From an uncultured Pirellulaceae bacterium (GTDB lineage: Bacteria > Planctomycetota > Planctomycetia > Pirellulales > Pirellulaceae), in the NCBI GenBank assembly GCA_937928555.1, contig CALFWR010000129.1, positions 1-41,951 on the forward strand: DNA of 41,951 nt, given 5' to 3'. Positions within the stretch are counted from its first letter, which is position 1; each line of letters opens with the position of its first letter. Shown here piece by piece: positions 17,964 to 36,610 of the stretch. Below the pieces are notes generated by a model, which was not told the origin of the DNA, did no database searches, and saw only the letters and a list, made by a program, of their open reading frames with translations. Position numbers and translations under genes: made by a program.

Positions 17964-20003
17964 ATGAGCCAAGCTTCCAAAGATAGTCCCGTGGCCAAAT
18001 TTTCGGGCGCGTCGATCTCTGCCGCAGATGACCTTTCGGTTGAACAGATTTCGACTTTTCAGCGCGTCCGCGATTGGCTGATCGGACACCGGCTACCGAT
18101 TCTGGTGATCGCGCACTGCGTGCTGTTCGCGTGCCTTTACTGGTTCGCGTTCATGATGCGTTTCTATTTGCAGACAGAGGAGCTTTTTGGAGGAACGGGA
18201 TTCCTCGGCGTGCCGTCAACGTACGTGAACGTCTTTTTGCAGGGAGCACCGTGGCTGGTGCTGATCAAGCTGACTGTCTTCTACGGTCTGCGAAGCTTTC
18301 ACGGTTGGTGGCGACATGTGAACTTTTCCGATTTTATCTCGTTGGTGAAAAGCGCCCTTGTGGCGACGTTTGTCATCCTGTTGGTTGACTACTTTGTGTT
18401 CCAGAACTGGACCGCTCGCGTGCCGCGAATGGTGCTGATCAACGATTTCTTTCTGACAATCGTGGTCATCGGCGGACTGAGATCCTGCTGGCGGCTGTGG
18501 GATGAGAGAATTGCTCCGCTGGACCGAAGCCGTGACAACGAAAGGTCTCTACTGGTCGGTGCGAATTTTAAAGAAGCTCGGATGGCCCATCTGATCAACG
18601 GCCAACACCAACTCAAAACCCGGATCGTGGGTTTGGTTTCGCCCAAGGACTATCCGCGCGGACGTCGCTTCAGCGACCTGAGAATTGTCGGAAGGCTCGA
18701 CAACCTAGGTGAACTCATGAAAGCCCATCGGGCCAAGACTCTGTTTGTGATCACCGGCAAGCTAAAAGGCAAGCAGTTGAGAGACCTGCTGGAATCGGCT
18801 TCGAACGAGGGATTCCGGATCAAGATTTTGCCTCCGCTGGAAGACCAGTTGCGTGGCCTCGATCGCGTACCGATTCGTGACGTGTCCTTTGATGACCTTC
18901 TTCGCCGCAAGCCCGCGTCACTGGATTTTGAAGAGATCGGAAAGATCACCGAAGGAAAAACGATCCTCGTAACGGGCGCTGGTGGCTCGATCGGATCGGA
19001 GCTTTGCCGGCAGCTTTGCAAATTCAATCCTGCCAAAATGGTGTTGCTGGGGCGTGGAGAGAATCGCATCTATCAGATATCCCGCGAGCTGGTCGAAGCC
19101 GAGCCACATATCGAATTCACACGCGTGATCGCCAATATCACCGACCAGGGCCGCATTCGGGCTGCGTTCGATCAACATCGACCGCATCTGGTGTTCCATG
19201 CCGCGGCCCACAAGCATGTACCGCTGGTGGAAGAAAACATCGGCGAGAGCATCATTAACAACATTCACGGCACGCGAGTGGTCGCTGACATGGCGGACCA
19301 GTTTGGCGTTGAGCGATTCGTGATGGTGTCGACCGACAAAGCCGTCAACCCGACCAGCATCATGGGGTGCACCAAACATATGGCCGAGCGCTACTGCCAG
19401 GCGTTGGGCGAAAAGTCATCGACCGCTTTCATTTCAACACGGTTCGGCAATGTGCTTGGTTCAGCCGGAAGCGTCGTTCCTCTGTTCCAGGAACAGATTC
19501 GCAAAGGCGGCCCGATCACGATTACCGACGAAAGAATGACCCGTTATTTCATGACGATACCCGAAGCGTCGCAGTTGGTTTTGCAGGCAGCTTCGATGGG
19601 TCGCGGCGGTGAGATTTTTGTGTTGGAAATGGGTCAGCCGGTAAAGATCATTGACTTGGCACACGACCTGATTCGTCTGGCTGGTCATTCGCCCGGATCG
19701 ATCGACATCGAAGTCCGCGGGATGCGGCCCGGCGAGAAGCTCTACGAAGAGCTTTACTACGGCGACGAAGAGCCAATCCCGACGTCGCACAGCCAGATTC
19801 TTTCGGCGCACAGTCGCGTGTTCCGGTTCGAAGAAGTCGAACATCAAGTGCAACGTTTGATCGAAGCAGCCTACGAACCGTCAGAAAAGATTCGATCGAT
19901 ATTGAATGAAATGATTCCGGAATTCATCTGCGAAACCGAACCGCCAGAAACCACGCCGGAAAGTGTTGCACTGAAATTGCCCGGCCCGAGGTCCGTTTCC
20001 TAG
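17964..20003 (+). CDS. pglF: PglF/WbpM/CapD-type UDP-GlcNAc 4,6-dehydratase, membrane-bound
   Basis: A 679-residue protein. The N-terminal third holds four transmembrane helices (IVIAHCVLFACLYWFAFMM onward) and a CoA-binding-like Rossmann domain (ERSLLVGANFKEARMA). The C-terminal half is an extended SDR with TGAGGSIGSEL (about residue 333), FHAAAHKHVPL and the active-site stretch STDKAVNPTSIMGCTK, in which Met replaces Tyr as usual for this family. It converts UDP-GlcNAc to UDP-2-acetamido-2,6-dideoxy-4-hexulose, the first step to N,N'-diacetylbacillosamine, at the inner membrane. PglE, PglD and PglC homologues follow in the same gene run. Start chosen at MSQASKD. It leads the operon, directly behind the structured leader. 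Confidence 0.9.
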   Translation: MSQASKDSPVAKFSGASISAADDLSVEQISTFQRVRDWLIGHRLPILVIAHCVLFACLYWFAFMMRFYLQTEELFGGTGFLGVPSTYVNVFLQGAPWLVLIKLTVFYGLRSFHGWWRHVNFSDFISLVKSALVATFVILLVDYFVFQNWTARVPRMVLINDFFLTIVVIGGLRSCWRLWDERIAPLDRSRDNERSLLVGANFKEARMAHLINGQHQLKTRIVGLVSPKDYPRGRRFSDLRIVGRLDNLGELMKAHRAKTLFVITGKLKGKQLRDLLESASNEGFRIKILPPLEDQLRGLDRVPIRDVSFDDLLRRKPASLDFEEIGKITEGKTILVTGAGGSIGSELCRQLCKFNPAKMVLLGRGENRIYQISRELVEAEPHIEFTRVIANITDQGRIRAAFDQHRPHLVFHAAAHKHVPLVEENIGESIINNIHGTRVVADMADQFGVERFVMVSTDKAVNPTSIMGCTKHMAERYCQALGEKSSTAFISTRFGNVLGSAGSVVPLFQEQIRKGGPITITDERMTRYFMTIPEASQLVLQAASMGRGGEIFVLEMGQPVKIIDLAHDLIRLAGHSPGSIDIEVRGMRPGEKLYEELYYGDEEPIPTSHSQILSAHSRVFRFEEVEHQVQRLIEAAYEPSEKIRSILNEMIPEFICETEPPETTPESVALKLPGPRSVS

Positions 20004-20024
20004 CCGTCGAACCTTAAGAGCCCG

Positions 20025-20945
20025 TTGATCCATCCAGTCAGTATCTTGAATCTGCCAAGCTTTCTCGTCATTGGAGCCATGAAGTGTGCGACGACAACGC
20101 TTCATCAGGATCTCGTCAAGCACCCCGATATCTTTTGTGGTGTCAAAGAGTTGAATGCGTTGACGCACCGGTCGGTTGATAAACAAAGTCAGGCCACCGA
20201 AATATACAAACACAATTTTCGAAAAGCCGACAGCAAACAGATTCTTGGAGATGTCTCAACCCACTATTCGATGTTGCCGGACTATCCCGGGGTAGCGGAT
20301 GTTGCTGCCGAGCTACTTGGTTCTGACCTGAAAATCATCTACCTCGTTCGGGAGCCAATCAGACGTTGCCTGAGTCATCACCAGCACATGATGAACGAAT
20401 CGACGGACCAAAAAATGGGCCCGGATGTCAATTTCGAAATTCGAAACAACCCCGCACCCATCGCCTACAGTCGATACGCAATGCAACTCGAACCATGGGT
20501 CGAAAAGTTCGGCATCGACCAGATCAAAGTTGTTAAATTTGAAGAGTACGTTGCCGATCGAGTTGACGTTGTCGCAGAAATCTTTGATTTCCTGGACGTA
20601 AATCCGGTAGAAATCGAAGCCGACCCGGCAGGTGCGAATCGCGGCCACAGCCGGTTGGTTGCCGGCAAGCTGATGACAAGTCTTTGGCATTCGAAAGTGT
20701 TTCAACGAATTCTTAAACCTGTGTCGCCTTCGTTTGTCCGAACTGCCGCTCGCAGTGTCCTGTTAAAAAAAGCAACTCAGGCAAGCATTCCGCCAACGGC
20801 GGATACGATTGACCTGATTTTCGAAAGCGTCAGGCAGGATGCGGAGAAATTGCAACAGATGACCGGGCGTAGCAAGCCGTACTGGGATCTGGAAAAGACC
20901 AGATCAGAATTCATAACGCAGCTTGGCGAACAATCCAACAATTGA
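20025..20945 (+). CDS. PAPS-dependent sulfotransferase 1
   Basis: A 306-residue cytoplasmic sulfotransferase. The 5'-phosphosulfate loop is LVIGAMKCATTTLHQDL (about residues 13-29) and the 3'-phosphate-binding segment is YLVREPIRRCLSHH (about 105-118), with a downstream KFEEY. Its pattern resembles the heparan/N-deacetylase-type sulfotransferases more than the aryl type. It transfers sulfate from PAPS to a sugar hydroxyl or amine; the glycan context makes a saccharide acceptor likely. The start appears to be TTG at 20025, with AAGAG just upstream; a second TTG at 20046 is possible. It follows pglF by 21 bp and overlaps the next gene. Confidence 0.85.
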   Translation: MIHPVSILNLPSFLVIGAMKCATTTLHQDLVKHPDIFCGVKELNALTHRSVDKQSQATEIYKHNFRKADSKQILGDVSTHYSMLPDYPGVADVAAELLGSDLKIIYLVREPIRRCLSHHQHMMNESTDQKMGPDVNFEIRNNPAPIAYSRYAMQLEPWVEKFGIDQIKVVKFEEYVADRVDVVAEIFDFLDVNPVEIEADPAGANRGHSRLVAGKLMTSLWHSKVFQRILKPVSPSFVRTAARSVLLKKATQASIPPTADTIDLIFESVRQDAEKLQQMTGRSKPYWDLEKTRSEFITQLGEQSNN

Positions 20946-21846
20946 CGGAGCCTTTCGCAGTTCAGTGACAACCAAGAAAGACATTGTCAACTCCAGTCTC
21001 TCTGATCGAGTCAGTTGGACAGGACAGTCCCAGGCTCGTGTTCGCAAGTACGGACGTGTGATTGCTGTTGCCAAACGATTTTCAATCTTCTTTGGCAAAA
21101 CGTTCCCCAATGCATTCCCGCTTGTTTTCGTATTGGGGCATCCCAAGAGTGGCACCACGTGGATGTGCCAATTGCTGGCGGACTATTTTCGCCTGCCGTT
21201 CCCGCAACATTCGATTATGCCCATTGGATGTTCCGCGGTTGTGCACAGCTTCGAAGCTCCCTCAAAGAAATATCGCAAGGGTGTGTATATGATCCGGGAC
21301 GGACGGGACACCGTTGTATCGACCTACTTTCATGTGCGTGGTCGATTGTTGGCTGGTGGAAAGGAACGTCACAACAGGACGTTGTTCGCGGGCTTGGACC
21401 CGAATGCAGAACCGTCTGCCAACATTGCGACATTTTTGCGTCGACTGCACGCCAATCCAACCGGTGGGCTTTCAAAGCTTCCAAGTTGGGGGCAGCATGT
21501 TAACGCATACTTCGAAAAGGGACACGAGAACCTGCAGATCGTGAAGTACGAGGACCTTCTTGATGACGGATGTCGCGCATTCGGGGAAGTCGTCAGCAAA
21601 ATGGCTGGCTGCGAGGCAGACGTGGAGCGAGTTGCTGATACGGTTCGACGATACTCGTTCAAAAACCAGACTGGAAGAAAGCAAGGCCAGGAAAATCGCG
21701 GCTCGTATCTTCGCAAAGGGGAAGCGGGAGACTGGAAAAACCATTTTTCCAAGGAAGCCGCTGAGGTCTTTCACCAGTACTATGGAACTGCATTGATCCG
21801 CGCGGGCTACGTGGCAGATGCGAACTGGATCAATCAGGTCCAATGA
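20923..21846 (+). CDS. PAPS-dependent sulfotransferase 2 (SULT-like)
   Basis: A 307-residue sulfotransferase of the Sulfotransfer_1 kind. The P-loop-like 5' site is HPKSGTTWMCQLL (about residue 73), the 3'-phosphate site is MIRDGRDTVVSTYFH, and near the C-terminus it has RKGEAGDWKNHFS, the hallmark loop of cytosolic SULTs. It is clearly a different subfamily from the preceding sulfotransferase, so the two probably act on different positions or sugars. Start is uncertain: TTG at 20923 overlaps the previous gene by 23 bases, and GTG at 20965 is an alternative. The stop overlaps the start of the deacetylase gene. Confidence 0.88.
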   Translation: MANNPTIDGAFRSSVTTKKDIVNSSLSDRVSWTGQSQARVRKYGRVIAVAKRFSIFFGKTFPNAFPLVFVLGHPKSGTTWMCQLLADYFRLPFPQHSIMPIGCSAVVHSFEAPSKKYRKGVYMIRDGRDTVVSTYFHVRGRLLAGGKERHNRTLFAGLDPNAEPSANIATFLRRLHANPTGGLSKLPSWGQHVNAYFEKGHENLQIVKYEDLLDDGCRAFGEVVSKMAGCEADVERVADTVRRYSFKNQTGRKQGQENRGSYLRKGEAGDWKNHFSKEAAEVFHQYYGTALIRAGYVADANWINQVQ

Positions 21847-22724
21847 TGATGTCGCTTAGAGAGACGCTACGCCATTGTGTGTTGAACGGCTTCGCCGCGG
21901 TTGACGTGATGAGAAATCGCGAAAGTCTGCTGGCGTCAAGCAAAATTGTTCAGGTGGTCAATTTTCACCACATGTACCCGTACGAAGAAACAGCATTCGG
22001 CGAGTTTCTGGACTGGTTTGCGAGTCGTTACAAAGTGATCTCCTACAGCGAGGCAGTAGAGCGGGTGCGCAGCGGGAATATCGACGCTGCTTACGGAGCG
22101 ATCACTTTTGATGACGGCCTCAAAAGCGTCCTCAGTGCCGGACGCATTCTTCAGGATCGCGGCTATTCGGCTACGTTCTTTGTCTGCTCGGGAGTCCTTG
22201 GCGAGACCTGCCCAACAAAACGAAGAGCTTTCTATGAAGGCGCTCTGATGGATTACGAGTCTGACGAATTCCTTTCGTGGGAAGACGTTGAGTTGCTTCA
22301 AAGCCAAGGTCACGAAATCGGCAATCACACCGTCAGTCATCCAAAAATAAGTCAGCTTGCGGATCGGCAGGCTCAACAAGAGATTGACCTTGCTCGCGAA
22401 TCACTTTCGCGACGCTTGGGAGACATCAATCACTTTGCCTGGCCATTCGGATCGTTTGAACTGTTGGGGCAGTCCGTGATCGAGCATTTGTGGAGTGCTG
22501 GTTACACTTCGATTGCATCAGGCGTTCGTGGTGCACACGCACCTCACACCGAGGTGACTCAAGACCTGCCGGTTGTATGCATGCGACGCGACAACGTCGA
22601 AGCACGTTGGCCCTTGGGGCACATCAAGCATTTCCTGATCAATAATGCCCAGCAGCCGGTTGGCCATCAACAATGGTGGCCGCAGGACTGGCGTATTGAA
22701 TCGCATTATTCAAATTCGAACTGA
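21843..22724 (+). CDS. polysaccharide deacetylase (NodB domain)
   Basis: A 293-residue carbohydrate esterase family 4-like protein. The metal/catalytic motif TFDDG is at about residue 89 and the His pair in GNHTVSHP at about 161-166. WPFGSF matches the later motif with a catalytic-side Pro. These enzymes remove N- or O-acetyl groups from GlcNAc-type residues of glycans or glycolipids. No signal peptide or anchor is visible, so it may act on a cytoplasmic lipid-linked intermediate, for example exposing an amine for N-sulfation; that is inference. It starts in an ATGATG overlap with the preceding sulfotransferase and ends 7 bp before the methyltransferase. Confidence 0.85.
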   Translation: MMMSLRETLRHCVLNGFAAVDVMRNRESLLASSKIVQVVNFHHMYPYEETAFGEFLDWFASRYKVISYSEAVERVRSGNIDAAYGAITFDDGLKSVLSAGRILQDRGYSATFFVCSGVLGETCPTKRRAFYEGALMDYESDEFLSWEDVELLQSQGHEIGNHTVSHPKISQLADRQAQQEIDLARESLSRRLGDINHFAWPFGSFELLGQSVIEHLWSAGYTSIASGVRGAHAPHTEVTQDLPVVCMRRDNVEARWPLGHIKHFLINNAQQPVGHQQWWPQDWRIESHYSNSN

Positions 22725-22731: not shown

Positions 22732-23547
22732 ATGAACGCGGATCAGGCAATCAAAGAAGTAGAGCAGGAGTTTCCGTTTGCGAACTACATGAGCGGTATC
22801 GATGACTCTCACGAGCACATTGCTGCCACCGTGAAAAAATGGGTTGCTGCTGAAGGAAAGGTTCTCGATTTTGCTTCGGGGCCATGTGACAAGGCAGTTG
22901 TGTTGCAGAAAATGGGATACCAGTGCAGCGCCTATGATGACCTTTCAGATCACTGGCACAACTTGCCGGGCAATCAGGAAACAATCATCAAATTTGCTCG
23001 CGATGCAGGCGTCGATTTCCATGTCGTCAAAGATCGAACGTTTCCGTTTCAGGAGAACACGTTTGACATGGTGATGGCCCATGCGGTGTTGGATCATCTG
23101 CACGATTCGCCGCGTGAGTTGTTGAATCAGTTGGTCAGTTTTATCAAGCCCGGCGGGTATCTGTTTGTGACCTTGCCCAATGCGGTCAACATCCGGAAAA
23201 GACTTGCCGTGATGCGAGGCCAAACGAACATGCCCGCTTACGAAAGTTACTACTGGTATCCGGGCAGTTGGCGGGGCCATGTGCGCGAATATGTGAAAGA
23301 CGACTTGAGCAAGATGTCAAATTATCTTGGGCTGGAAGTCGTGGACCTTCGTGGTTGCCATTTGTTCTCGCGTCGAGTCGGGCCGGTATTCCGACCGCTG
23401 TACCTTGCAATGTCGGCGGTCTTTACCGGTTGGCGGGATTCGTGGACGCTGGTCGCACGCAAGCCTGAAAATTGGCAACCCAAACTCGATCTCGAGAAAA
23501 ACGAATTGGACAAGATTATCACGTTGGAAGCGTTTCAACAAAAATGA
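22732..23547 (+). CDS. SAM-dependent methyltransferase (type 11)
   Basis: A 271-residue class I methyltransferase. Motif I is VLDFASGPCDKAV (about residue 44), AYDDL is the acidic motif II, and FDMVMAHAVLDHLHD is the family's post-II region, followed by LLNQLVSFIKPGGYLFVTLPN. A C-terminal hydrophobic segment (FRPLYLAMSAVFTGW) could attach it to the membrane. In this locus a sugar O-methylation or a lipid-linked step is likely, but the substrate is unknown. The start at 22732 (MNADQAI) is chosen because the longer frame overlaps the deacetylase coding sequence. The stop overlaps the next gene's ATG. Confidence 0.8.
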   Translation: MNADQAIKEVEQEFPFANYMSGIDDSHEHIAATVKKWVAAEGKVLDFASGPCDKAVVLQKMGYQCSAYDDLSDHWHNLPGNQETIIKFARDAGVDFHVVKDRTFPFQENTFDMVMAHAVLDHLHDSPRELLNQLVSFIKPGGYLFVTLPNAVNIRKRLAVMRGQTNMPAYESYYWYPGSWRGHVREYVKDDLSKMSNYLGLEVVDLRGCHLFSRRVGPVFRPLYLAMSAVFTGWRDSWTLVARKPENWQPKLDLEKNELDKIITLEAFQQK

Positions 23548-24869
23548 GTCAGCCAATACACATCAATGCGAATCAGCTTCCGCAAGGTGGTTTTGCGGGG
23601 GTGCGGGAAGCAGGCCCCGGCACCATCGCGTACGAACGACTGATTATTTTTCTATTCACCTCCCTCATCGCATCGCTTCCCTTTTTCTCAGTCAGGAACC
23701 CTTTGTTGGGTTTTTCGATTCCGCTTTTGGTGTTGCTGGCGATTGCAGCACTGGTTGGCCTGAAGTCAATGCTCACAATGCGAATGCCAATGTCAATTTC
23801 ACTGCTGGACATTGGAATTATTTGCTATTTCGGGGTTATTGTTGCGAGCGTGTCGCTGTTTCAAAATGCAGAAGGCGCCAAGCTGGCGATGGTGAAGACG
23901 GGCATCTACATCGGCATCTATGCGTGTCTAAAAATGACACTCAGAGAAATCACGGTCGAACAAATAGGTATCGCAGCTCGAAACGGCGTGATGACAGGAA
24001 CGATTTTGTTTTTTGTGGTCGCGTTGGGGTGTCTTCTGGCTACAGGGAAATTGCAACTGCTCCTGCAGGGCTTTAACTACCATGCCGTAACACGTAACAC
24101 GTTCCTTGCGATCGATTCGATTTTGGGAAGCGGTCAGCCGGACGATTTCGAAGGGCGGGACGTAATGCGAAACGCTGTCGCGGAAGCGTTCACGTTCTAC
24201 TTTCTGTGTACAACAGTGTTTCAGTTCAGAAATCCAATGACCAACATTTTCCTGTTGGCGATGAACGTGATTTTCGTGGTCTGCACCTTTTCCAGACGGG
24301 CATTTTATGCAATTGCCATCGTGGTGTTTGGAGGCTCTTCCCGCGATTTAATAGGGTTCAAGCGAGCGATTTCCCTGTTGCTTTTGGTTGGAAGCGTTGT
24401 CGTAACTGCATTGTTCCTTGAAGAGAACGCGAGTGATAGTCGATTGGGCGATTTTTCTGACGGCGGCCGTTATCAGCAGTATTACGATGCAATCGAACAG
24501 TTCGATAGCTCTCCAATTTTTGGGATTGGATTTGGGGCAAAGCTGGATCGGGGCTCTTACGTTCACAACTTCGTGTTCGGCAGCGCCGCGATGATGGGTA
24601 TATTCGGTCTGCTGGTAGCTCTGTTCATCTATTCTTCGACAATCATTTTGTTCCTAGCAGGCTTGCTTCGACCGCGACCGTACAACACCGCCGTATTCTT
24701 GGTCATTCCGATTCTGGGAATGACCGTTGGAGCTACATTTGAAGGATTGTTCACAGTCACCAGTTGGGTTGCGATCGCGGTGTTTTTGGTATGTGAAGAG
24801 AAGCAAACCGAGTCCGGTGAAGGCGACGATTCTCATATGACTGCTGCGTCAGGTAGCTTCAATGCATAA
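23544..24869 (+). CDS. wzy: O-antigen ligase/polymerase-like membrane protein (Wzy-type)
   Basis: A 441-residue protein with about ten to twelve hydrophobic helices. A large periplasmic-type loop (about residues 300-350) contains GRYQQYYDAIEQFDSSPIFGIGFG and SYVHNFVFG, the R-x-x-x-x-x-A...P-x-x-G-x-G and H-N-x-x-x pattern of the Wzy/WaaL superfamily, in which Arg and His act in glycan transfer. It is the probable polymerase for lipid-linked repeat units made by this locus. Ligase and polymerase roles cannot be split from sequence alone; the adjacent Wzx-like flippase favours polymerase. It overlaps the preceding gene by ATGA and the next by eight bases. Confidence 0.78.
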   Translation: MSQPIHINANQLPQGGFAGVREAGPGTIAYERLIIFLFTSLIASLPFFSVRNPLLGFSIPLLVLLAIAALVGLKSMLTMRMPMSISLLDIGIICYFGVIVASVSLFQNAEGAKLAMVKTGIYIGIYACLKMTLREITVEQIGIAARNGVMTGTILFFVVALGCLLATGKLQLLLQGFNYHAVTRNTFLAIDSILGSGQPDDFEGRDVMRNAVAEAFTFYFLCTTVFQFRNPMTNIFLLAMNVIFVVCTFSRRAFYAIAIVVFGGSSRDLIGFKRAISLLLLVGSVVVTALFLEENASDSRLGDFSDGGRYQQYYDAIEQFDSSPIFGIGFGAKLDRGSYVHNFVFGSAAMMGIFGLLVALFIYSSTIILFLAGLLRPRPYNTAVFLVIPILGMTVGATFEGLFTVTSWVAIAVFLVCEEKQTESGEGDDSHMTAASGSFNA

Positions 24870-26175
24870 ACAGTACGGTTCGATGCTGTTGATCAAAGCG
24901 TCTGCGGCAGTTTTGATGTTTGCCTCGCAGGTCATGCCGGCATGGTGTTTGGGAATCGATCAGTTCGGCGATTTTCAGTATCTTTGCTCTGTGCTTGTCG
25001 TCCTTGGCTTTGTCGTCGCTTGGGGAACTGACCGCTACTGTTTGAAGGAATTTTCACTCGGCAGACGCGAGCAAACAACATCCAAAGTCGCGGACAATTC
25101 CTCAGACCATAAATCGGGAAACATACTGTTCGCAGCCTACGCCATTATCGTCATCAATACAGTTTTGGCCTGCGTCGCGCTGCCCCTTTACCTCCATTAC
25201 AATATGGAAGGCGGCATGACGAAATCACTGTTGGCTGTGTGCCTGTTTCTGCTGTTCTTCAGGACGATTGCACAAGTCACCGCTTCGATCACAAAAGGTC
25301 TGGACAGGGTTATTGAGTCAGAATTGGTGTTTAGTGTTTTACGGCCTTTGCTGTTCGTTTTTCCAATGGCAGTTTTCTATCTTACGGCTACGAGTATTTC
25401 GCTTGACGCGGTAATGCTCCTTTTTGCATTTTCTTTCCTGGTGGTCTCTGTTGTTCTTTGGATCGTCAATGCAAAAACGAATCCGGATCTGAAACTCAAG
25501 CCTCAGCTGAAGGAAATTCCCGTCGTCTACAAGCTGTCGTTTTTCTTTTTCCTTGTGGGCGTCGGTTTGCCATTGATGGCCAACATCAACACAATTGAGC
25601 TTGGTAATATTCGCTCTTCGAAAGAAGTCGCGTTGTTTGCGGCTGCCGCCAAATTGGTGGGGCTGGTTCTGTTGGCGCTGGTGTCCGCAAATCTGCTGAT
25701 CGCACCCAAGTTATCGCCACTGTTTTACAATGGAGAAATCTCCGAAATGCGAAACCTGATTCGCAGTAACAACGCGTTTGTGCTAACGCTGACCGGCATT
25801 CCCGTGGTGTTAATTGTGCTGTGCGCCGAGCAGGCACTGGGGGTGTTTGGCGCGAAGTACATTGCAGCCGCTCCCCTGTTGCGAACGCTGGTCATCGGGC
25901 AAGCGTTCAGCGTCCTGTGCGGGCCGGTAATTTTGACCGCCACGATGATCGGTCTGCAGAAGCACACGGCTGCTGTTGTGCTGGGAAGCTGTGCCGTCAA
26001 CTGGTTGCTTTGCGCATGGTTGATACCGGAGTACGGTTCCATGGGAGCCGTATATGCGAGCGTCATCGGCAACATCCTGATCAACGGTGTGTTGGCAATC
26101 ATTATCTACGTTCGAGTTGGTTTGAATGTCACAATGTCCAATCTATTGATCGCTACCGAGCAGAGCGTTGGATAA
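24862..26175 (+). CDS. wzx: Wzx-type polysaccharide flippase
   Basis: A 437-residue protein with about twelve hydrophobic helices and few long loops, in the MATE-like polysaccharide transporter pattern. Typical elements are the early FGDFQYLCSVLVVLGFVVAWG segment, NINTIELGNIRSSKEVALFAAAAKLV in the middle helices, and VFGAKYIAAAPLLRTLVIGQAF near helix 9-10. Wzx proteins move undecaprenyl-PP-linked oligosaccharides to the outer face of the inner membrane. Its position directly after the polymerase and before glycosyltransferases fits. Start overlaps the wzy-like stop by eight bases. Confidence 0.83.
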   Translation: MHKQYGSMLLIKASAAVLMFASQVMPAWCLGIDQFGDFQYLCSVLVVLGFVVAWGTDRYCLKEFSLGRREQTTSKVADNSSDHKSGNILFAAYAIIVINTVLACVALPLYLHYNMEGGMTKSLLAVCLFLLFFRTIAQVTASITKGLDRVIESELVFSVLRPLLFVFPMAVFYLTATSISLDAVMLLFAFSFLVVSVVLWIVNAKTNPDLKLKPQLKEIPVVYKLSFFFFLVGVGLPLMANINTIELGNIRSSKEVALFAAAAKLVGLVLLALVSANLLIAPKLSPLFYNGEISEMRNLIRSNNAFVLTLTGIPVVLIVLCAEQALGVFGAKYIAAAPLLRTLVIGQAFSVLCGPVILTATMIGLQKHTAAVVLGSCAVNWLLCAWLIPEYGSMGAVYASVIGNILINGVLAIIIYVRVGLNVTMSNLLIATEQSVG

Positions 26176-28306: not shown

Positions 28307-29458
28307 ATGCCCAACAGCCCGACCCAAAAAAGAATCTTTCTGTCGCCGCCTCACATGTCAGGCACTGAACTTGAGTATGTCAAACAGGCATTTGAAAGCA
28401 ACTATATCGCCCCAGTAGGCCCGCAGCTAAAACAGTTCGAGCACGTCTTCAGAGAAATCACCGGTTTCGAACATTGCCTTGCCGTTTGCAACGGTACCAG
28501 CGCGATCCATCTTGCAATGCGTTCACTTGGTGTTGAGGCGGGTGACAAAGTGCTTGCCTCGACTCTCACTTTTGTTGGAAGTGTTAGCCCTGTAATTTTC
28601 CAAAATGCTGAAATTGTGTTTATCGACAGTGACCGACACACCTGGAATATGGACCCCAATATTCTGGAAGAGGAGTTAAAACGTCTGGCTGTTGCCGGAG
28701 ACCTTCCCAAAGCAGTTCTTCCAACAGAACTCTACGGTCAGGCCTGTGACCTAGACCAAATCGTAAAAATCTGTGACCAGTACGAAGTCCCAGTCGTGTG
28801 TGACAGTGCCGAATCACTGGGAGCTCACTACAGGGGGCGTTCGGTCGGGAGAGACGCACAGGCGGCAGTGTTCTCTTTCAATGGAAATAAAATCATTACC
28901 ACGTCCAGTGGAGGAATGTTGGCAAGTGACGATGCAGACTTGATCGAACACTGTCGCTACCTTGCGACTCAGGCACGCCAACCCGTTCGCCACTATGAAC
29001 ACCATGACGTTGGTTACAACTACCGGATGAGCAATGTGCTGGCTGCAATTGGCATCGGGCAAATGGAGGCTCTCGCTGATCGCGTTAATCGGAAGCGAGA
29101 AGTGTTTGCGGAGTATCAGCAAAGAATCGGTGATCTGCCCGGCTGGACGTTTATGGCGGAAGCGAAGTATGGTCGGTGTAACCGGTGGCTTACCGTGGCG
29201 ACGATCGATCCGGAATTATTCGGTGCCACACACGAGGACGTGATCGTGGCTTTGGAAGCGGAAAATATCGAATCCCGACCCGTTTGGAAGCCACTGCATT
29301 TGCAAAAGGCATTTTCCCAATTCCGTGTTGTCGGCGGGGAAGTATCGACAAGCCTGTTTGATTGCGGCATCTGTTTGCCCAGCGGCACGGCGATGGACTC
29401 TGCGGATCTGGACCGCGTTTGCAAGACAATTCGATCTGTTGGAAACACCAGCCGATAA
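28307..29458 (+). CDS. pglE: PglE-type UDP-4-keto-sugar aminotransferase
   Basis: A 383-residue DegT/DnrJ/EryC1 aminotransferase. The opening KRIFLSPPHMSGTELEYV...NYIAP and the PLP-lysine stretch SFNGNKIITTSSGGML match PglE, which aminates C4 of the PglF product using glutamate. GTSAIHLAMRSLGVEAGDKVL and CDSAESLGAHYRG hold further cofactor contacts. ATG at 28307 gives the usual family N-terminus 26 bp after the preceding stop. ATG at 28268 would overlap the previous gene and add 13 residues. Together with PglF, PglD and PglC it forms a full diacetylbacillosamine set. Confidence 0.9.
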   Translation: MPNSPTQKRIFLSPPHMSGTELEYVKQAFESNYIAPVGPQLKQFEHVFREITGFEHCLAVCNGTSAIHLAMRSLGVEAGDKVLASTLTFVGSVSPVIFQNAEIVFIDSDRHTWNMDPNILEEELKRLAVAGDLPKAVLPTELYGQACDLDQIVKICDQYEVPVVCDSAESLGAHYRGRSVGRDAQAAVFSFNGNKIITTSSGGMLASDDADLIEHCRYLATQARQPVRHYEHHDVGYNYRMSNVLAAIGIGQMEALADRVNRKREVFAEYQQRIGDLPGWTFMAEAKYGRCNRWLTVATIDPELFGATHEDVIVALEAENIESRPVWKPLHLQKAFSQFRVVGGEVSTSLFDCGICLPSGTAMDSADLDRVCKTIRSVGNTSR

Positions 29459-29483: not shown

Positions 29484-30746
29484 ATGAATATTCTCTTCGT
29501 CATGCTCATTTACGATGACCCTAAAAGCGGTCGAGGATTTTACACAGACCTCGTGCAGAAGATCAATTCGACCGAACACGATGTGACCGTGATCGCGCCG
29601 AGCGTTGATGGATTTGTTGGCATGCGACAGGAAAACGGCGTAACTGTTATTCGGGCAAAAACCGGAAAACTGTTTGAAGTTCACAAAGTTGTCAAAGGGA
29701 TCAACAACCTGCTTCTGCCGTCTGCTTTTCAGAAAGCCCTAGACAAACACATTAAAGACACGTCTTTTGACTGGATCGTGTCTCCGACGCCGCCGATCAC
29801 GTTGGCTCCATTGATCGCGAAATTGAAAAAGCGATATCGCTGCCGGTCGTATTTGATATTGCGAGACATCTTTCCGCAAAATGCACGCGACCTTGGTTTG
29901 ATCAACAATTCAATGATATTCAATTTCTTTCGGCGCAAAGAGAAACGAATGTATGGAATCTCGGACATTATTGGATGTATGTCGCAGGGCAATGTTGATT
30001 ATGTCCGAAATCACAACCCGGAACTCGATCCCGGGAAAGTTACGATTCTTTACAACTGGATCGGATTTGAGCAAAGCGAGCCTGAGCTCACAGAGACTCG
30101 TCAGCAGTTGCGAACGCGATTTGAAATCCAGGACAAATTCGTTGCCTTATTCGGTGGAAACCTTGGAAAGCCCCAGGGGATCGATGCCATTTTGGATTTG
30201 GCTGATACCGTCAAGAAAACTCACCCCGACATTCTGTTCATGTTGATGGGAAACGGCACGGAGCGCAATCACATCCAGAACGTCATCAAACAAAAGTGTT
30301 TGGACAATGTGCAACTTCGTCCCTTTCTTCCTCGAAACGATTACCTGAAACTTGCATCGGTGTGTGACCTTGGTTTAGTGAACCTGAGCAAAGTTTCTAC
30401 AACTCCCAATATTCCATTGCGGACATTTGCGTATTGGGCCAGCGAACTTCCCGTGCTTGCTTCACTCGATGCAGCGACAGATATTGGAAAAATTATCGAC
30501 CGAGCCAAGGGAGGCCTGTGGTCGTTGACTGGCGATTTGGAATCCTATCGTGCAAACTTGCTGGCGTTGTACGACAACGATGAAGGTCGTGTGCAGATGG
30601 GAAAAAATGGAAAACAGGCTGTGGTGACACATTATGAAACTAAAATTATTGCTGGCCGGTTTATTGATCAGCTAATGGAGTTCGACGAAACAGGATCGGT
30701 AACCACAATTCAAAGCCAACCCGCAGGTAAACCTGTCGATGTCTGA
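29484..30746 (+). CDS. WbuB-like family 4 glycosyltransferase
   Basis: A 420-residue GT-B enzyme. It begins MNILFVMLIYDDPKSGRGFYTDLVQ and has the pattern SYLILRDIFPQNARDLGLI typical of WbuB-like aminodeoxy-sugar transferases. The C-terminal domain has FVALFGGNLGKPQGIDAIL and NIPLRTFAYWASELPVLASLD in place of the usual E-x7-E region. WbuB homologues transfer L-FucNAc. A UDP-L-aminodeoxysugar pathway (32190-34166 and 35483-36610) follows in the same locus, so this is the likely consumer. The start at 29484 is chosen since the longer frame overlaps pglE. It overlaps pglD by eight bases. Confidence 0.8.
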   Translation: MNILFVMLIYDDPKSGRGFYTDLVQKINSTEHDVTVIAPSVDGFVGMRQENGVTVIRAKTGKLFEVHKVVKGINNLLLPSAFQKALDKHIKDTSFDWIVSPTPPITLAPLIAKLKKRYRCRSYLILRDIFPQNARDLGLINNSMIFNFFRRKEKRMYGISDIIGCMSQGNVDYVRNHNPELDPGKVTILYNWIGFEQSEPELTETRQQLRTRFEIQDKFVALFGGNLGKPQGIDAILDLADTVKKTHPDILFMLMGNGTERNHIQNVIKQKCLDNVQLRPFLPRNDYLKLASVCDLGLVNLSKVSTTPNIPLRTFAYWASELPVLASLDAATDIGKIIDRAKGGLWSLTGDLESYRANLLALYDNDEGRVQMGKNGKQAVVTHYETKIIAGRFIDQLMEFDETGSVTTIQSQPAGKPVDV

Positions 30747-31362
30747 TGGAATCTGGATCTATGGTGCCGCCGGGCATGCCAAGGTGATCATTCAGGCGAT
30801 CCTTTCGTCGGGTCAGTCCGTTGGTGGAGTCGTCGACGACAACCCGGATCTGATGGGTGCCAGAATAATCGGGTTTGAAATTCAACCTGTTTCGAGTATT
30901 CCAGATTCGGTTCCGCTGGTGATTGCGATTGGGAACAATCAGGTTCGAAAGCAAATTGTTGATCGCTTTGACTCTCAGCAGGGCAAGCAAAGATGGCCAA
31001 CGATCGTGCATCCCACCGCTATCGTTGACTCAACGGTAAAGCTTGGTGCAGGAACTGTCGTCATGGCGGGTGCCGTGCTTCAAGCAGACACGGTCATTGG
31101 TGACCACTCCATCGTGAACACTCGTTCATCGGTAGACCACGATGTTTGTGTCGGCGATTTTTGTCATGTTTGTCCTGGTGCCACGATTGCTGGCCATGTG
31201 TCCATAAACCAACTGGTGATGATTGGAACCGGTGCTAACGTGGTGCCATGCGTGACCATTGACGAAATGGCCATCATTGGAGCCGGAGCTTGTGTTGTTT
31301 CGGATGTACCCGCCAGTTGTGTCGCCATCGGTGTGCCGGCGAGAATAAAAACCAATGGTTAA
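30739..31362 (+). CDS. pglD: PglD/NeuD-type sugar O/N-acetyltransferase
   Basis: A 207-residue protein with an N-terminal Rossmann-like nucleotide-sugar domain (WIYGAAGHAKVI) and a C-terminal left-handed beta-helix made of hexapeptide repeats (from about residue 88: HPTAIVDSTVKLGAGTVVMA). The proposed catalytic His is in SSVDHDVCVG. PglD acetylates the 4-amino group of the PglE product to give UDP-N,N'-diacetylbacillosamine. It overlaps the neighbours on both sides by eight bases, so the Pgl genes are translationally coupled. Confidence 0.9.
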   Translation: MSDGIWIYGAAGHAKVIIQAILSSGQSVGGVVDDNPDLMGARIIGFEIQPVSSIPDSVPLVIAIGNNQVRKQIVDRFDSQQGKQRWPTIVHPTAIVDSTVKLGAGTVVMAGAVLQADTVIGDHSIVNTRSSVDHDVCVGDFCHVCPGATIAGHVSINQLVMIGTGANVVPCVTIDEMAIIGAGACVVSDVPASCVAIGVPARIKTNG

Positions 31363-31966
31363 GCGGATTTTCGACATTATTGTTTCGTCAGCCGTGCTGG
31401 TGCTGGCCTTTCCCGTTATCGTTCTGGTCGCGTTGTCAGTTCGAATTTTCCTCGGAAGTCCGGTACTTTTTCGGCAGCAGCGTCCCGGCTTGCAAGGCAA
31501 GCCGTTCGAGCTTTTGAAGTTTCGATCGATGCGTGACGCGATGGCTCCTGACGGCAGCCCGCTTCCAGATAGCAAACGCTTAACAGACTTTGGAAAATTT
31601 CTACGCAAGTCCAGTCTTGATGAACTGCCAAGCCTGTTGAACATTCTCAAAGGAGAGATGAGTCTTGTCGGTCCGCGTCCGCTGTTGATGCAGTATATGG
31701 AGCTATATTCGCCGGAACAGAACCGTCGGCATGACGTTCGCCCGGGACTGACAGGATGGGCGCAGGTAAACGGCAGGAACGATATTGACTGGCAGGAGAA
31801 GTTTCGCCTGGACGTTGAATACGTAAACAAAAAATCCTTTTGGTTTGATTGCAAAATTCTGTTGTTGACCGTCAAGAAAATGCTCACTGCCGAGGGCGTT
31901 TCCAAAGCGGGCCACTGTACGACCGACGTTTTTACAGGCAATGATTCGAAAAATACAAACATCTAG
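31355..31966 (+). CDS. pglC: PglC-type initiating phosphoglycosyltransferase
   Basis: A 203-residue small monotopic phosphoglycosyltransferase. It has an N-terminal reentrant membrane helix (FDIIVSSAVLVLAFPVIVLV), a KFRSM segment, the catalytic Asp-Glu in KSSLDELPSLLN, and MSLVGPRPL and RPGLTGWAQVNGR. This is the compact PglC form without the large N-terminal part of WbaP. It transfers diNAcBac-1-phosphate to undecaprenyl phosphate, committing the repeat unit. The following 223 bp hold a palindromic repeat and no gene. Confidence 0.93.
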   Translation: MVKRIFDIIVSSAVLVLAFPVIVLVALSVRIFLGSPVLFRQQRPGLQGKPFELLKFRSMRDAMAPDGSPLPDSKRLTDFGKFLRKSSLDELPSLLNILKGEMSLVGPRPLLMQYMELYSPEQNRRHDVRPGLTGWAQVNGRNDIDWQEKFRLDVEYVNKKSFWFDCKILLLTVKKMLTAEGVSKAGHCTTDVFTGNDSKNTNI

Positions 31967-32189: not shown

Positions 32190-33248
32190 ATGTCCAAAAC
32201 ATTTGATCCCACTGACAAGACCGTTCTGATTACCGGTGGTACCGGCTCGTTTGGTAAAACGATGGTTATGCACCTGCTGAAAAAGGGATTTTCACAAATC
32301 CGAATTTTCAGCCGCGACGAATGGAAGCAGGAAGACTTGCGAGTGCGAATGGCAGAACCGCGTTTGAAGTTTTACATTGGCGACGTTCGCAGTCGTCCGA
32401 GCGTTGACGCGGCAATGGAAGGTGTCGATCTTGTTTTTCATGCTGCAGCTCTCAAACAGGTTCCGTCTTGCGAATTTTTCCCGATGCAGGCAGTCGAAAC
32501 CAACATCATCGGTAGCAACAACGTGATCGAATCAGCAGTTGCCCATGGTGTGGAATGCCTTGTTGTTCTCGGGACCGATAAAGCAGTCTATCCTGTCAAC
32601 GCGATGGGAATGACCAAAGCCGTTATGGAAAAAGTGGCTCAGTCGGTAGCCCGCCGGTTGGGAGAAAGTGAAAATGGCGGCACGCGAGTCTGTTCGGTCC
32701 GCTACGGAAACGTGATGTATTCTCGCGGGTCTGTGATCCCATTGTTTGTAAGGCAGATCCGGGAAGGCAACCCCATTACCGTCACGTCCAAAGAGATGTC
32801 ACGATTCATGATGCCGTTGAGTGATTCGGTGCGACTGGTTGAGTTTGCGTTTCAAAATGCGCGACAGGGTGACATTTTCGTCAAAAAAGCAGCTGCCTGC
32901 ACAATCGGAATGCTGGCTCAGGCGATCAAGGAACTATTCAAGTCCGATGTGCCAATCAACACGATTGGGATTCGCCACGGTGAGAAAATGTTCGAAGCCC
33001 TGGCAAGCTGCGCTGAAGTTCAGAGGTCCGAGGATATGGGTGATTTTCTCAGAATTCCGATGGACGAGCGAGATCTGAACTATAGTAGATTTTTCACCGA
33101 AGGCGACGACAACGACGGACAGTTTCAGGACTACGACTCGCATACCACTAGGCAATTAGGCATGGATGAAGTGAAAGAATTACTGCTGCAATTGCCGGAA
33201 ATTCAGCAAGATTTGATAGATGCTGGCATCACGCCCGCTGCGAAATAA
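32190..33248 (+). CDS. fnlA: FnlA/WbjB-type UDP-GlcNAc 4,6-dehydratase/5-epimerase
   Basis: A 352-residue extended SDR without membrane segments. Motifs are TGGTGSFGKTM (NAD binding), FHAAALKQVPSCEFFPMQAV, and the active-site stretch GTDKAVYPVNAMGMTKAVMEK with Met at the Tyr position. IGIRHGEKMFE and MGDFLRIPMDERDLNYSRF are typical of the WbjB group. It converts UDP-GlcNAc to UDP-2-acetamido-2,6-dideoxy-L-arabino-4-hexulose by C4,C6 dehydration and C5 epimerisation. Start at MSKTFDP. It begins a second sub-block of the locus (dehydratase, reductase, aminotransferase, 2-epimerase). Confidence 0.88.
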   Translation: MSKTFDPTDKTVLITGGTGSFGKTMVMHLLKKGFSQIRIFSRDEWKQEDLRVRMAEPRLKFYIGDVRSRPSVDAAMEGVDLVFHAAALKQVPSCEFFPMQAVETNIIGSNNVIESAVAHGVECLVVLGTDKAVYPVNAMGMTKAVMEKVAQSVARRLGESENGGTRVCSVRYGNVMYSRGSVIPLFVRQIREGNPITVTSKEMSRFMMPLSDSVRLVEFAFQNARQGDIFVKKAAACTIGMLAQAIKELFKSDVPINTIGIRHGEKMFEALASCAEVQRSEDMGDFLRIPMDERDLNYSRFFTEGDDNDGQFQDYDSHTTRQLGMDEVKELLLQLPEIQQDLIDAGITPAAK

Positions 33249-34166: not shown

Positions 34167-34181
34167 CGTTACTAGGAAAAC

Positions 34182-35264
34182 ATGAAAGTTCCTCAATTCA
34201 AATCTTACGTCGACAAAACGGACTACGCCCATCTCGAAGCAGTCTTTGAGAACAATTACATCGCTGAAGGCCCGTTTGCTCGCGAGTTTTCTGACAAGCT
34301 GTTGGAAATAATCGGTTCTCCCTACGGCGTGTTCGCCAGCAATGGAACCGTCGCCCTGTATTTGGCGATGCGTGCCCTTGAGCTTGGTCCCGGCGATGAT
34401 GTCTTTGTCCAGAACTCAACATTTATCGCGTCGGCCAATGGCGTGGAGATGGCAGGTGCCAACCCTGTGTTTGTTGATGTCGTCCGATATGACGACCTTT
34501 CGATTGACCTTAACAAGGTACACCTGACAGACAAAAGCAAAGCGATGGTGATCGCGCCGCTGTTCGGAACGGCCTACTCCAACATTGCCGAAGTGCAGCA
34601 GTTTTGCCGCGACAACAATCTGTTCCTGATTGAAGACGCCGCGCAGGCACTTGCCATTACAGACGGCGTGAACCATTGCGGCACGTTTGGAGATGTGGCG
34701 ACGTTTTCTTTCTACGCTGACAAAACGATCACAACCGCAGAAGGTGGATACGTTGTGACGCGACACGAGGATGTCTATGAGAGGATGCGTTTTTTGCGCA
34801 ATCAGGGACGCAAGCAAAGCGGAACATTTTTGCATCCGGAAATTGGATACAACTTTCGGATCACCGACATGCAGGCCGCCCTTGGGCTTTCCCAGTTGAA
34901 AAAACTGGACACGATTAAACGCGAGAAAGCCAAAATCTACGACCTGTACTACAAGCATCTTGGCGGGCACGTCGAGTTTCTGAGGCTGGCCGACGGGTTT
35001 AACCACATTCCGTTTCGAGTTGTCGTTTTCGTTGACAGCGCTGAAAAGAGCGCGCAATACATGGCGGAAAAGGAAATTGAACCCCGTTCTGTTTTCTATC
35101 CTTTGCATAGACAACCGTGCTATCAGCATCTTGGTTATGGCGACGAGTCGTTTGAGCAATCGATTGCCTGTTACGAGAAAGGTATTTGCTTGCCTACCTG
35201 GATTGGGCTGACTGAAGAGCACATTGAGCATGTCTCCAATGCGCTGCTGGAATCGATTTCCTAG
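34182..35264 (+). CDS. second DegT/DnrJ/EryC1 aminotransferase
   Basis: A 360-residue PLP-dependent sugar aminotransferase. It has NYIAEGPFAREF, SNGTVALYLAMRALELGPGDDV, EDAAQAL, and the PLP-lysine in FYADKTITTAEGG, the pattern of perosamine/4-amino-4-deoxysugar transaminases. It is not the PglE homologue, which is at 28307. It may aminate a second 4-keto sugar, for instance the FnlA-type product, diverting part of the flux to a 4-amino sugar. The stop TAG lies in CTAG, which is also the duplicated target of the fold-back element that follows; the empty site gives the same stop. Confidence 0.87.
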   Translation: MKVPQFKSYVDKTDYAHLEAVFENNYIAEGPFAREFSDKLLEIIGSPYGVFASNGTVALYLAMRALELGPGDDVFVQNSTFIASANGVEMAGANPVFVDVVRYDDLSIDLNKVHLTDKSKAMVIAPLFGTAYSNIAEVQQFCRDNNLFLIEDAAQALAITDGVNHCGTFGDVATFSFYADKTITTAEGGYVVTRHEDVYERMRFLRNQGRKQSGTFLHPEIGYNFRITDMQAALGLSQLKKLDTIKREKAKIYDLYYKHLGGHVEFLRLADGFNHIPFRVVVFVDSAEKSAQYMAEKEIEPRSVFYPLHRQPCYQHLGYGDESFEQSIACYEKGICLPTWIGLTEEHIEHVSNALLESIS

Positions 35265-35394: not shown

Positions 35395-35482
35395 CCGCCT
35401 GAGCAATTTAAAGCATTGAGTGGCCTGTTTTTGAAAACAGCGCATTCACCTAGAACACTTCGAAAGATCTGGAATCAATCAC

Positions 35483-36610
35483 ATGAAAGTTTTGACCCTT
35501 GTTGGAACCCGTCCCGAAATCATCAAACTCAGCCGGGTAATGGCGGAAGTTGAAAAGTACTGTGAACATGTTCTGGTGCATACGGGCCAAAATTATGACT
35601 ACGAGTTGAACGAGATTTTCTTTGAAGACCTTGGCGTCAAGAAACCCGACTACTTTCTGGAAGTCGTGGGGAAATCGGTCGCACACACGATCGGGAACGT
35701 TATCGCCAAAGCGGACGATGTGTTTGAGAAAGAGCAGCCTGACGCGGTTCTTCTTTATGGCGACACCAACAGTTGCCTTGCGGTGATCGCTGCGAAACGT
35801 CGGAAAATTCCGGTGTTTCATTTCGAAGCGGGAAACCGGTGCTTTGATCAGCGCGTCCCGGAAGAGCTTAATCGAAAAGTTCTTGACCACCTGAGCGACA
35901 TCAATATGCCGTTAACCGAACACGCTCGGCGATATTTGATCGCCGAAGGAATCGATCCTGCGAGAGTGATCAAGACCGGTTCTCCGATGAAAGAGATTCT
36001 TGAACACAACATGGAGGGGATTAAGAATTCAGATGTTCTTGAAAAGTTGAACCTGACCAAGGGTCAGTACTTTATTGTTAGCGCGCATCGGGAAGAGAAC
36101 GTGGATTCTGAGCAGAACTTCAACGACCTGCTTGATTCGCTAAATAGTATTGCAGAGAAATACCAGTATCCGGTGATTGTCGCTACTCACCCGCGAACGT
36201 TGAAACGGTTAAAGGAACTTGGTCGCGATGACAAAAATCCACTGGTGCAGTTTTTGAAGCCAATGGGTTTCTTTGACTATGTGAAAATGCAGTTGGATTC
36301 ATGTTGCGTCATTTCTGACAGCGGCACGATCACCGAAGAGTCTTCGATCCTCAACTTCCCCGCGATCACAATTCGGCAGGCACACGAGCGGCCTGAGGGA
36401 ATGGATGAGGGCACGTTGATCATGACGGGTCTCAAAAGCGAAGCGATTCTGCGTTCCATTGATGTTGTTACGACTCAGTCGAAGGAAGCGGCTCGGGCGT
36501 TCAAGACCGTTGCTGACTACGATGTGGACAACTTTTCGAAGAAAGTGCTTCGGATTATTCTTAGCTATACCGACTATGTTAATCGCACCGTTTGGAAAAA
36601 GACTCTGTAG
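35483..36610 (+). CDS. WecB/FnlC-type UDP-HexNAc 2-epimerase
   Basis: A 375-residue GT-B-fold epimerase. It has VGTRPEIIKLSRVM, HTGQNYDYELNEIFF, LYGDTNSCLAVIAAKRRKIPVFHFEAGNR, RVPEELNRKVLDHLSD, SAHREENVDSEQNF and ISDSGTITEESSILNFPAI. The H-F-E-A-G-N-R-C-F-D-x-R-V-P-E-E-x-N-R-K-x-x-D stretch is closer to FnlC/WbjD than to classical WecB. It would invert C2 of the reduced L-sugar nucleotide to UDP-L-FucNAc or UDP-L-QuiNAc. It is the last gene of the plus-strand locus and converges with moaE. Confidence 0.88.
   Translation: MKVLTLVGTRPEIIKLSRVMAEVEKYCEHVLVHTGQNYDYELNEIFFEDLGVKKPDYFLEVVGKSVAHTIGNVIAKADDVFEKEQPDAVLLYGDTNSCLAVIAAKRRKIPVFHFEAGNRCFDQRVPEELNRKVLDHLSDINMPLTEHARRYLIAEGIDPARVIKTGSPMKEILEHNMEGIKNSDVLEKLNLTKGQYFIVSAHREENVDSEQNFNDLLDSLNSIAEKYQYPVIVATHPRTLKRLKELGRDDKNPLVQFLKPMGFFDYVKMQLDSCCVISDSGTITEESSILNFPAITIRQAHERPEGMDEGTLIMTGLKSEAILRSIDVVTTQSKEAARAFKTVADYDVDNFSKKVLRIILSYTDYVNRTVWKKTL

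Follow-up and report, generated by a model that had tools for sequence, protein, structure and literature searches.

Gene clusters that join sulfotransferases to genes of glycan synthesis have been described in several bacteria and in a giant virus, and they provide the closest counterparts to the locus reported here: a run of 17 genes on the + strand (17964-36610) in an uncultured Pirellulaceae bacterium (Planctomycetota). The window, i.e. the whole stretch of DNA that was analysed, is a complete contig of 41,951 nucleotides (CALFWR010000129.1; G000:C129 in our numbering) from a 91% complete draft genome of 4.87 Mb in 168 contigs. Judged from its genes alone, the run encodes, with a probability of roughly 0.7, a sulfated surface polysaccharide (capsule, exopolysaccharide or O-antigen) that is initiated with di-N-acetylbacillosamine (diNAcBac) and assembled by the Wzx/Wzy route.

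Two described clusters share this type of assembly. The synechan (xss) cluster of Synechocystis 6803 is likewise a Wzx/Wzy cluster with sulfotransferases inside it, two enzymes of distinct subfamilies, and its outer-membrane export gene lies elsewhere in the genome; it differs in its eight glycosyltransferases and in its phylum, and the available part of its description mentions neither a bacillosamine-type gene set nor a deacetylase (PMC8205485). The wps-1 cluster of Actinoplanes missouriensis combines Wzx/Wzy genes with a methyltransferase and two sulfotransferases of different families, one of which has a heparan-sulfate-sulfotransferase domain, and sulfation is predicted there as here; its host, however, is Gram-positive, and no Pgl or FnlA cassette is mentioned in the available text (PMC13390465). 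The sulfated capsules of Vibrio KMM 8419 and Cobetia marina KMM 1449, whose structures were solved by nuclear magnetic resonance, also have sulfotransferase genes and genes for 3'-phosphoadenosine 5'-phosphosulfate (PAPS) in their clusters, but they are of the ABC-transporter type with rhamnose-containing repeats (PMC11641403, PMC11766843). The glycosaminoglycan-like exopolymers of Pontiella, like the present host a member of the Planctomycetes-Verrucomicrobia-Chlamydiae superphylum, were reported to reach 75% and 80% N-sulfation and are associated with a sulfotransferase gene clustered with potential hexosaminyltransferases and an aminotransferase, although the accessible part of the paper describes no deacetylase, Pgl set or mutant-based link between genes and product (PMC7356697). 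In the giant virus Moumouvirus australiensis, one cluster likewise holds genes for UDP-diNAcBac (4,6-dehydratase, aminotransferase, acetyltransferase) and for UDP-N-acetyl-L-quinovosamine (UDP-L-QuiNAc) together with a sulfotransferase; diNAcBac and quinovosamine (Qui2N) were detected chemically and sulfation is putative, whereas the virus differs in having its own SAT/APS kinase and a single sulfotransferase, and PglC, Wzx, Wzy and a deacetylase are not mentioned in the text available (PMC10117803).

In the present locus, as in synechan, sulfotransferases of the PAPS type lie within the assembly cluster. An earlier note on this DNA had called sulfated polysaccharides rarely documented in bacteria; cases with clustered sulfotransferases have been published, as far as those reports were available (PMC8205485, PMC11641403, PMC11766843, PMC7356697). 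Sulfated bacterial polymers are already known, and the locus is a rich variation on them, not a new kind of system. Within the partial coverage of our literature search, no paper was found that describes a bacterial locus with this set of genes, or that deals with sulfated bacillosamine or on a planctomycete sulfotransferase together with a capsular polysaccharide, and bacterial N-sulfation with a polysaccharide deacetylase and a sulfotransferase was represented by an engineered enzyme only. In Shark Bay mats, according to the part of that study available, a sulfotransferase gene occurs in some Planctomycetes metagenome-assembled genomes (MAGs) and is absent in most orders there (PMC9723792).

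The gene run (Table 1) is compact. The 13 genes from the PglF-like to the PglC-like protein overlap at 8 of their 12 junctions, with a largest gap of 25 nt, and wider spacings occur between PglC and FnlA (223 nt; FnlA ATG at 32190) and between the second aminotransferase (AT2) and FnlC (218 nt). Two parts of the earlier inventory hold: the loops MKCATTT, PKSGTTW and GRSGTTL of three sulfotransferase subtypes are present in the translations, which also match PF13469/PF00685, and Pfam matches together with the tight spacing place Wzx, Wzy (both narrowly above cut-off), two glycosyltransferases, a deacetylase, a methyltransferase and PglF/E/D/C homologues in one run. The inventory was incomplete at its end, where the last four genes resemble a cassette of the L-QuiNAc or N-acetyl-L-fucosamine (L-FucNAc) type plus the second aminotransferase.

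Table 1. Genes of the predicted polysaccharide run; every named gene is a + strand open reading frame with at least one Pfam match above the curated cut-off (ST, sulfotransferase; HS, heparan sulfate; GT, glycosyltransferase; GlcNAc, N-acetylglucosamine)
Gene product	Coordinates	Strand	Matches
PglF-like membrane UDP-GlcNAc 4,6-dehydratase, 679 aa	17964..20003	+	PF02719 (Polysacc_synt_2) and CoA_binding_3; best solved relative 5bju ('WlaL protein'), 284 bits
ST1, HS-sulfotransferase fold	20025..20945	+	PF13469/PF00685; 3rnl and HS 3-O-sulfotransferases by sequence; Foldseek
ST2, cytosolic-SULT-like sulfotransferase (PKSGTTW)	20923..21846	+	PF00685; best solved relatives cytosolic SULTs, SULT2-type chains
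CE4 (NodB-type) polysaccharide deacetylase	21843..22724	+	PF01522 (Polysacc_deac_1); best solved relatives peptidoglycan GlcNAc deacetylases
S-adenosylmethionine-dependent methyltransferase	22732..23547	+	PF13489/PF08241 (Pfam scan from upstream start 22645)
Wzy-type polymerase (or ligase)	23544..24869	+	PF04932 (Wzy_C), 33.3 bits; 13 hydrophobic segments
Wzx flippase	24862..26175	+	PF01943 (Polysacc_synt), 31.1 bits; 13 hydrophobic segments
ST3, tyrosylprotein-sulfotransferase fold	26168..27136	+	PF13469, 92 bits; TPST1, 39 bits; Foldseek
GT4 glycosyltransferase GTa	27133..28281	+	PF00534
PglE-like UDP-4-keto-sugar aminotransferase	28307..29458	+	PF01041 (DegT); best solved relatives 1o61/4ztc, 316/313 bits
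GT4 glycosyltransferase GTb (WcaI-like)	29484..30746	+	PF00534/PF13439; WcaI subfamily 97 bits, under cut-off
PglD/NeuD-type acetyltransferase	30739..31362	+	PF17836 (PglD_N) and Hexapep; TIGR03570, 204 bits, above cut-off
PglC-like phosphoglycosyltransferase (initiating enzyme)	31355..31966	+	PF02397 (Bac_transf); 8g1n, 208 bits
FnlA/CapE-like UDP-GlcNAc 4,6-dehydratase/5-epimerase	32190..33248	+	Polysacc_synt_2; 4j2o 380 and CapE 3vvb 371 bits, versus 193 for 2gn4
RmlD-like reductase, 288 aa	33300..34166	+	PF04321; RmlD-type models and chains only
AT2, second DegT-type sugar aminotransferase	34182..35264	+	PF01041; perosamine-synthetase-like
WecB/FnlC-type non-hydrolysing UDP-GlcNAc 2-epimerase	35483..36610	+	PF02350 (Epimerase_2); TIGR00236, 244 bits, above cut-off

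The bacillosamine reading is well supported by homology, because PglF, PglE and PglC match best to solved structures of the Campylobacter Pgl pathway and PglD exceeds its cut-off. The PglF match 5bju is one that we take to be Campylobacter jejuni PglF, and the PglE matches 1o61 and 4ztc are presumably C. jejuni PglE; the PglC-like protein scores 208 bits against the diNAcBac-1-phosphate transferase 8g1n versus 130 bits against WbaP, and the PglD assignment comes from PglD_N and TIGR03570 (above the NCBIfam cut-off) alone. The locus differs from the Campylobacter pathway in its added sulfotransferases, and Wzx and Wzy stand in place of Campylobacter PglK and PglB. N-linked glycosylation of the Campylobacter type was rejected as the principal explanation, since the 91%-complete genome gave 0 matches to STT3/PglB.

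The second sugar cassette contains homologues of both CapE/FnlA and CapG/FnlC. Where a CapF/WbjC-type bifunctional reductase would be expected there is the 288-aa RmlD-like protein, and no WbjC-type model was among the NCBIfam matches of the latter. In Moumouvirus, the proposed UDP-L-QuiNAc route proceeds through a dehydratase/5-epimerase, a 4-reductase of 270 aa and a 2-epimerase, as given in the available part of the paper (PMC10117803). Since the gene set and the short reductase fit that route, the predicted product of the cassette is likelier to be UDP-L-QuiNAc than UDP-L-FucNAc. In this cassette, AT2 (34182-35264) separates the reductase gene from the 2-epimerase gene.

The core of a Wzx/Wzy pathway is present in one locus: Bac_transf, Polysacc_synt (31.1 bits against a cut-off of 28.2) and Wzy_C (33.3 against 31.7, a weak match) are all above cut-off. 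Two glycosyltransferases plus PglC suggest a repeat unit of about three sugars. There was no Poly_export (Wza) gene on this contig, matches to it lying on other contigs of the genome, and the window proteins that were scanned, representing part of its open reading frames, included no Wzz; Wza-type and Wzz genes are present on contig C102. Such absences carry little weight in a draft genome of 168 contigs and 91% completeness.

The sulfotransferases themselves are of distinct kinds. ST1 matches 3rnl at 78 bits, HS 3-O-sulfotransferases at up to 38 bits and the HS N-deacetylase/N-sulfotransferases (NDSTs) at up to 20 bits; with its structural model (mean pLDDT 84.5), Foldseek ranks 1-19 are occupied by 3rnl, HS 3-O-sulfotransferases and NDST1. 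A 12-row alignment, from which a short fragment (L069) was left out, has no variation at K20 in the PAPS loop, at K41-E42, at R109 or at S117, and a K-E pair of this sort is catalytic in HS sulfotransferases. ST3 has tyrosylprotein sulfotransferases as its best relatives by sequence (TPST1) and by fold (Foldseek ranks 1-13; model pLDDT 77). ST1, ST2 and ST3 probably each act at a different position. Because they and the deacetylase have zero hydrophobic segments in a Kyte-Doolittle scan, all four are expected to be cytoplasmic. APS kinase is encoded at two places in the genome, and PAPS as the donor is supported by another Planctomycetota MAG, in which an ST2-ST1 pair (L064:7779-11697) adjoins ATP sulfurylase and APS kinase. 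Other neighbours of that pair are methyltransferases, a GT4 glycosyltransferase and two proteins with the prokaryotic N-methylation motif, and the gene spacing in L066 is similar. A single-sequence scan of the genome_contigs collection with ST1 gave no relative; an alignment search there with ST2 did reach ST1-bearing relatives. A viral origin of ST1 was set aside after one scan of viral_contigs returned no relative.

Ten PF00685 matches occur in the genome, three of them at this locus. Chance clustering is unlikely, given a probability of ~8e-4 that three of ten random points fall inside 7.1 kb, in a test picked after the cluster was seen. At six of the seven other places (L021-L025, L027), the stretch examined lacks assembly and sugar genes resembling those of this locus, and the same similarity test found such genes in 0 of 10 other stretches of the genome (L021-L025, L027, L055-L058). 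The seventh place, on contig C102, is a run of a glycosyltransferase, a sulfotransferase, Wzx, a phosphoglycosyltransferase, a Wza-type gene (opposite strand), Wzy_C, Wzz and a further glycosyltransferase. This second sulfotransferase-bearing polysaccharide run (L026, G000:C102:1-14000) has an initiating transferase of 485 aa.

Homology suggests the following pathway. PglF, PglE and PglD would produce UDP-diNAcBac, from which PglC would transfer diNAcBac-phosphate to undecaprenyl phosphate. GTa and GTb would then extend the chain; the FnlA-type cassette probably provides one of the added sugars, as L-QuiNAc or L-FucNAc, and AT2 perhaps supplies another 4-amino sugar. At the cytoplasmic face, the site of PAPS synthesis, the apparently soluble deacetylase, methyltransferase and ST1-ST3 would modify the lipid-linked repeat unit. 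The sulfated unit would be flipped by Wzx and then polymerised by Wzy, with Wza/Wzz-type partners presumably supplied by other loci of the genome.

Related loci were compared at several taxonomic distances. A genome of the same genus (G004, locus L015) conserves ST1 (57% identity), ST2 (46%), the deacetylase (37%) and GTa (58%) in one run. Also encoded there are an acyltransferase of the hexapeptide type, an FkbM methyltransferase, a Wzx other than that of the window and a membrane protein that is Wzy-like but has no Pfam match; there were no Pgl genes in the 40 kb of this contig that was searched. Another genome of the genus, G020, has the order PglF-ST-aminotransferase-PglC-Wzx-Wzy-ST2-acyltransferase-GT. 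Among 396 genomes of the order, the ST2 profile had 9 matches including the window. An assembly gene is recognisable within the stretch examined in 4 of the other 8, a number that rises to 6 when sugar-nucleotide genes are counted as well. The genome_contigs collection yielded 517 ST2 relatives, the best 80 of which were analysed, with gene content scored solely by similarity to this locus and to G004: 24 of these 80 loci have an assembly gene (PglC/Wzx/Wzy), 26 a sugar-nucleotide gene and 14 both, and at least two sulfotransferases are encoded in 32.

By similarity thresholds, PglF, aminotransferase, PglC and sulfotransferase genes occur together at six other loci in four phyla. Four are among the best 80 (L061, Pirellulaceae; L088, Nocardioides jejuensis; L104, Saprospiraceae; L133, Neptuniibacter), L104 qualifying weakly with a PglF-like piece of only 27% identity, and two (L051, L053) are among 9 further stretches; the duplicate DNA L015=L059 and L049=L102 is still counted in the tallies of 80 and 9. 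The nearest arrangement, in L061, has the near-syntenic order PglF-ST2-Wzy-Wzx-ST3-GTa-PglE-another sulfotransferase-PglC-GTb-FnlA, with identities of 60% (PglF), 41% (ST2), 50% (Wzx), 51% (ST3), 54% (GTa), 66% (PglE), 38% (PglC) and 23% (GTb), and 86% for the 170 residues of FnlA that the stretch includes at its end. ST3 adjoins both Wzx and GTa in L061 and adjoins Wzx in the Neptuniibacter locus, and GTa matches of at least 100 bits occur in L059/L015, L061, L133 and L047. As far as similarity can tell, the arrangement recurs across loci. The earlier suggestion that this combination looks undescribed is not supported, in view of these six loci and of the published giant-virus cluster, whose account was available in part (PMC10117803). 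The central proposal of the note, a sulfated, bacillosamine-initiated Wzx/Wzy polysaccharide, is supported by homology, namely the sulfotransferase and PglF/E/C matches, the recurring loci and the synteny with L061.

Several observations weigh against the polysaccharide assignment. ST1 is rare in close kin, being found in 6 of 117 relatives including the genome itself (E 1e-20), and of the ST1-anchored relatives L017-L020, four in number, one shows a PglC. Nor does the ST2 family keep to assembly loci throughout, because 44 of the best 80 loci lack assembly genes as well as sugar-nucleotide genes and only 24 have an assembly gene; at many Phycisphaerales ST2 loci no assembly gene of this kind was seen. 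Some relatives may start from another sugar, since PglC of L061 is just 38% identical. ST3 resembles tyrosylprotein sulfotransferases most, and several NCBIfam models stay under their cut-offs (FnlA, 407 of 730; LegC, 355 of 420).

The most durable alternative concerns one step within the sulfated-polysaccharide reading. The earlier note proposed N-deacetylation followed by N-sulfation, as in HS. What stands of this is its possibility: ST1 with its HS-sulfotransferase fold is encoded together with a CE4 deacetylase that retains the FDDG and HTxxH motifs, which G004 also keeps. The specificity does not follow, since N-sulfation and O-sulfation are not told apart by the fold, 3-O-sulfotransferases and NDST1 both being among the top matches, and most ST1 relatives have no such deacetylase in the stretches examined. 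We find it fairly probable that all sulfates are O-linked, the deacetylase only freeing an amine or removing an acetyl group for another reason. Many 3-O-sulfotransferases are among the nearest sequence and fold relatives of ST1, and CE4 is rare beside it: at 16 distinct ST1+ST2 loci (both at 90 bits or more), where ST1 and ST2 touch or overlap (stop-to-stop frames) in 9, a motif-complete CE4 deacetylase occurs in 2, or 3 of 17 counting the window. It occurs in none of 13 further ST1 stretches, within the stretches examined, some of which are short (e.g. L071 and L077, ~7 kb); these were the strongest additional matches from 392 genomes of the phylum (16 with matches) and 397 of the class (17 with matches), and one of them, L173, overlaps L067, their ST1 rows being identical.

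In the ST1 tree, 3 of 26 rows are paired with the deacetylase within the stretches examined, and these form one clade, as expected of coupled enzymes (support 93/94 with 12 rows and 91/80 with 26 rows; the placement of L175, a very long branch in the 26-row tree, is not trusted). The single clade would fit coupling in one lineage and, equally, inherited gene order. An iterated CE4 profile pulled in proteins that lack the metal motif, and a strict one was built from the window, L059, L068 and L086; on the earlier 89 stretches it gave, besides its own members, a motif-complete match in L015, whose DNA is that of L059, and two weaker matches without FDDG, L137 and a second L015 protein. Exclusive O-sulfation is further countered by NDST1 among the top folds and by the Pontiella exopolymers, reported in the available text to be mainly N-sulfated (PMC7356697), so bacterial N-sulfation is not unheard of. 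We put forward tentatively, as rather doubtful, that ST1 and the CE4 protein form a bacterial two-protein N-deacetylase/N-sulfotransferase acting in the cytoplasm on an undecaprenyl-linked oligosaccharide and giving an N-sulfated, bacillosamine-initiated polymer. The likeness to NDST would lie in a deacetylase and an HS-sulfotransferase-fold enzyme being encoded together; the differences are that here they are separate soluble proteins, that N-sulfation is putative and that the substrate is likely a lipid-linked oligosaccharide.

Two alternatives concern the locus as a whole. The glycan could serve protein O-glycosylation, the Wzy_C protein being an O-oligosaccharyltransferase that transfers a sulfated oligosaccharide to proteins; diNAcBac is best known from protein glycosylation, Wzy_C (Pfam name O-Antigen ligase; the match is weak) spans ligases as well as polymerases, and the contig has no Wza gene. 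We regard this as improbable, because an FnlA-type cassette, two glycosyltransferases and Wzx are typical of O-antigen and capsule loci, and because relatives keep the sulfotransferases and GTa while the Wzy-like protein differs. That one or more of the sulfotransferases have proteins, lipids or small metabolites as their acceptors and are located here incidentally is very unlikely, despite the tyrosylprotein-type ST3, the resemblance of ST2 to steroid-type SULTs and the six places elsewhere in the genome with no such neighbours, given the overlapping genes of the run, the position of ST3 beside Wzx in L061 and L133 and beside GTa in L061, and the improbable grouping of three of ten genes.

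As to the surroundings of the run, scanning 17500-37000 for promoters and terminators produced no excess over shuffled sequence (10 vs 14.4 and 25 vs 25.3, respectively). Its G+C content (0.504) is lower than that of the flanks (0.532 before, 0.566 after); reduced G+C is frequent in exchanged surface-glycan loci. A GGDEF diguanylate cyclase gene (14342-15331, - strand) lies a few genes upstream; a link of the polymer to cyclic di-GMP via this gene is possible. Four long open reading frames (453-620 aa) at 692-2395, 5471-6835, 7268-9079 and 11819-13684 have no Pfam match at E 0.001.

The locus offers soluble bacterial enzymes of the HS-sulfotransferase fold, an operon from which their acceptor can be predicted, and a deacetylase as a candidate partner. 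If the two-protein proposal is true, ST1 and the CE4 protein would be a prokaryotic counterpart of the first modification step of HS. Active expression of NDST in bacteria is described as a bottleneck for heparin biosynthesis, in the available part of that paper (PMC13353177). In several phyla, moreover, PglF/aminotransferase/PglC sets are located next to sulfotransferases. An abundance of sulfatases is a known trait of marine planctomycetes, as noted in the accessible text of the Pontiella study (PMC7356697); the present locus and those related to it suggest that some planctomycetes make sulfated polymers as well.

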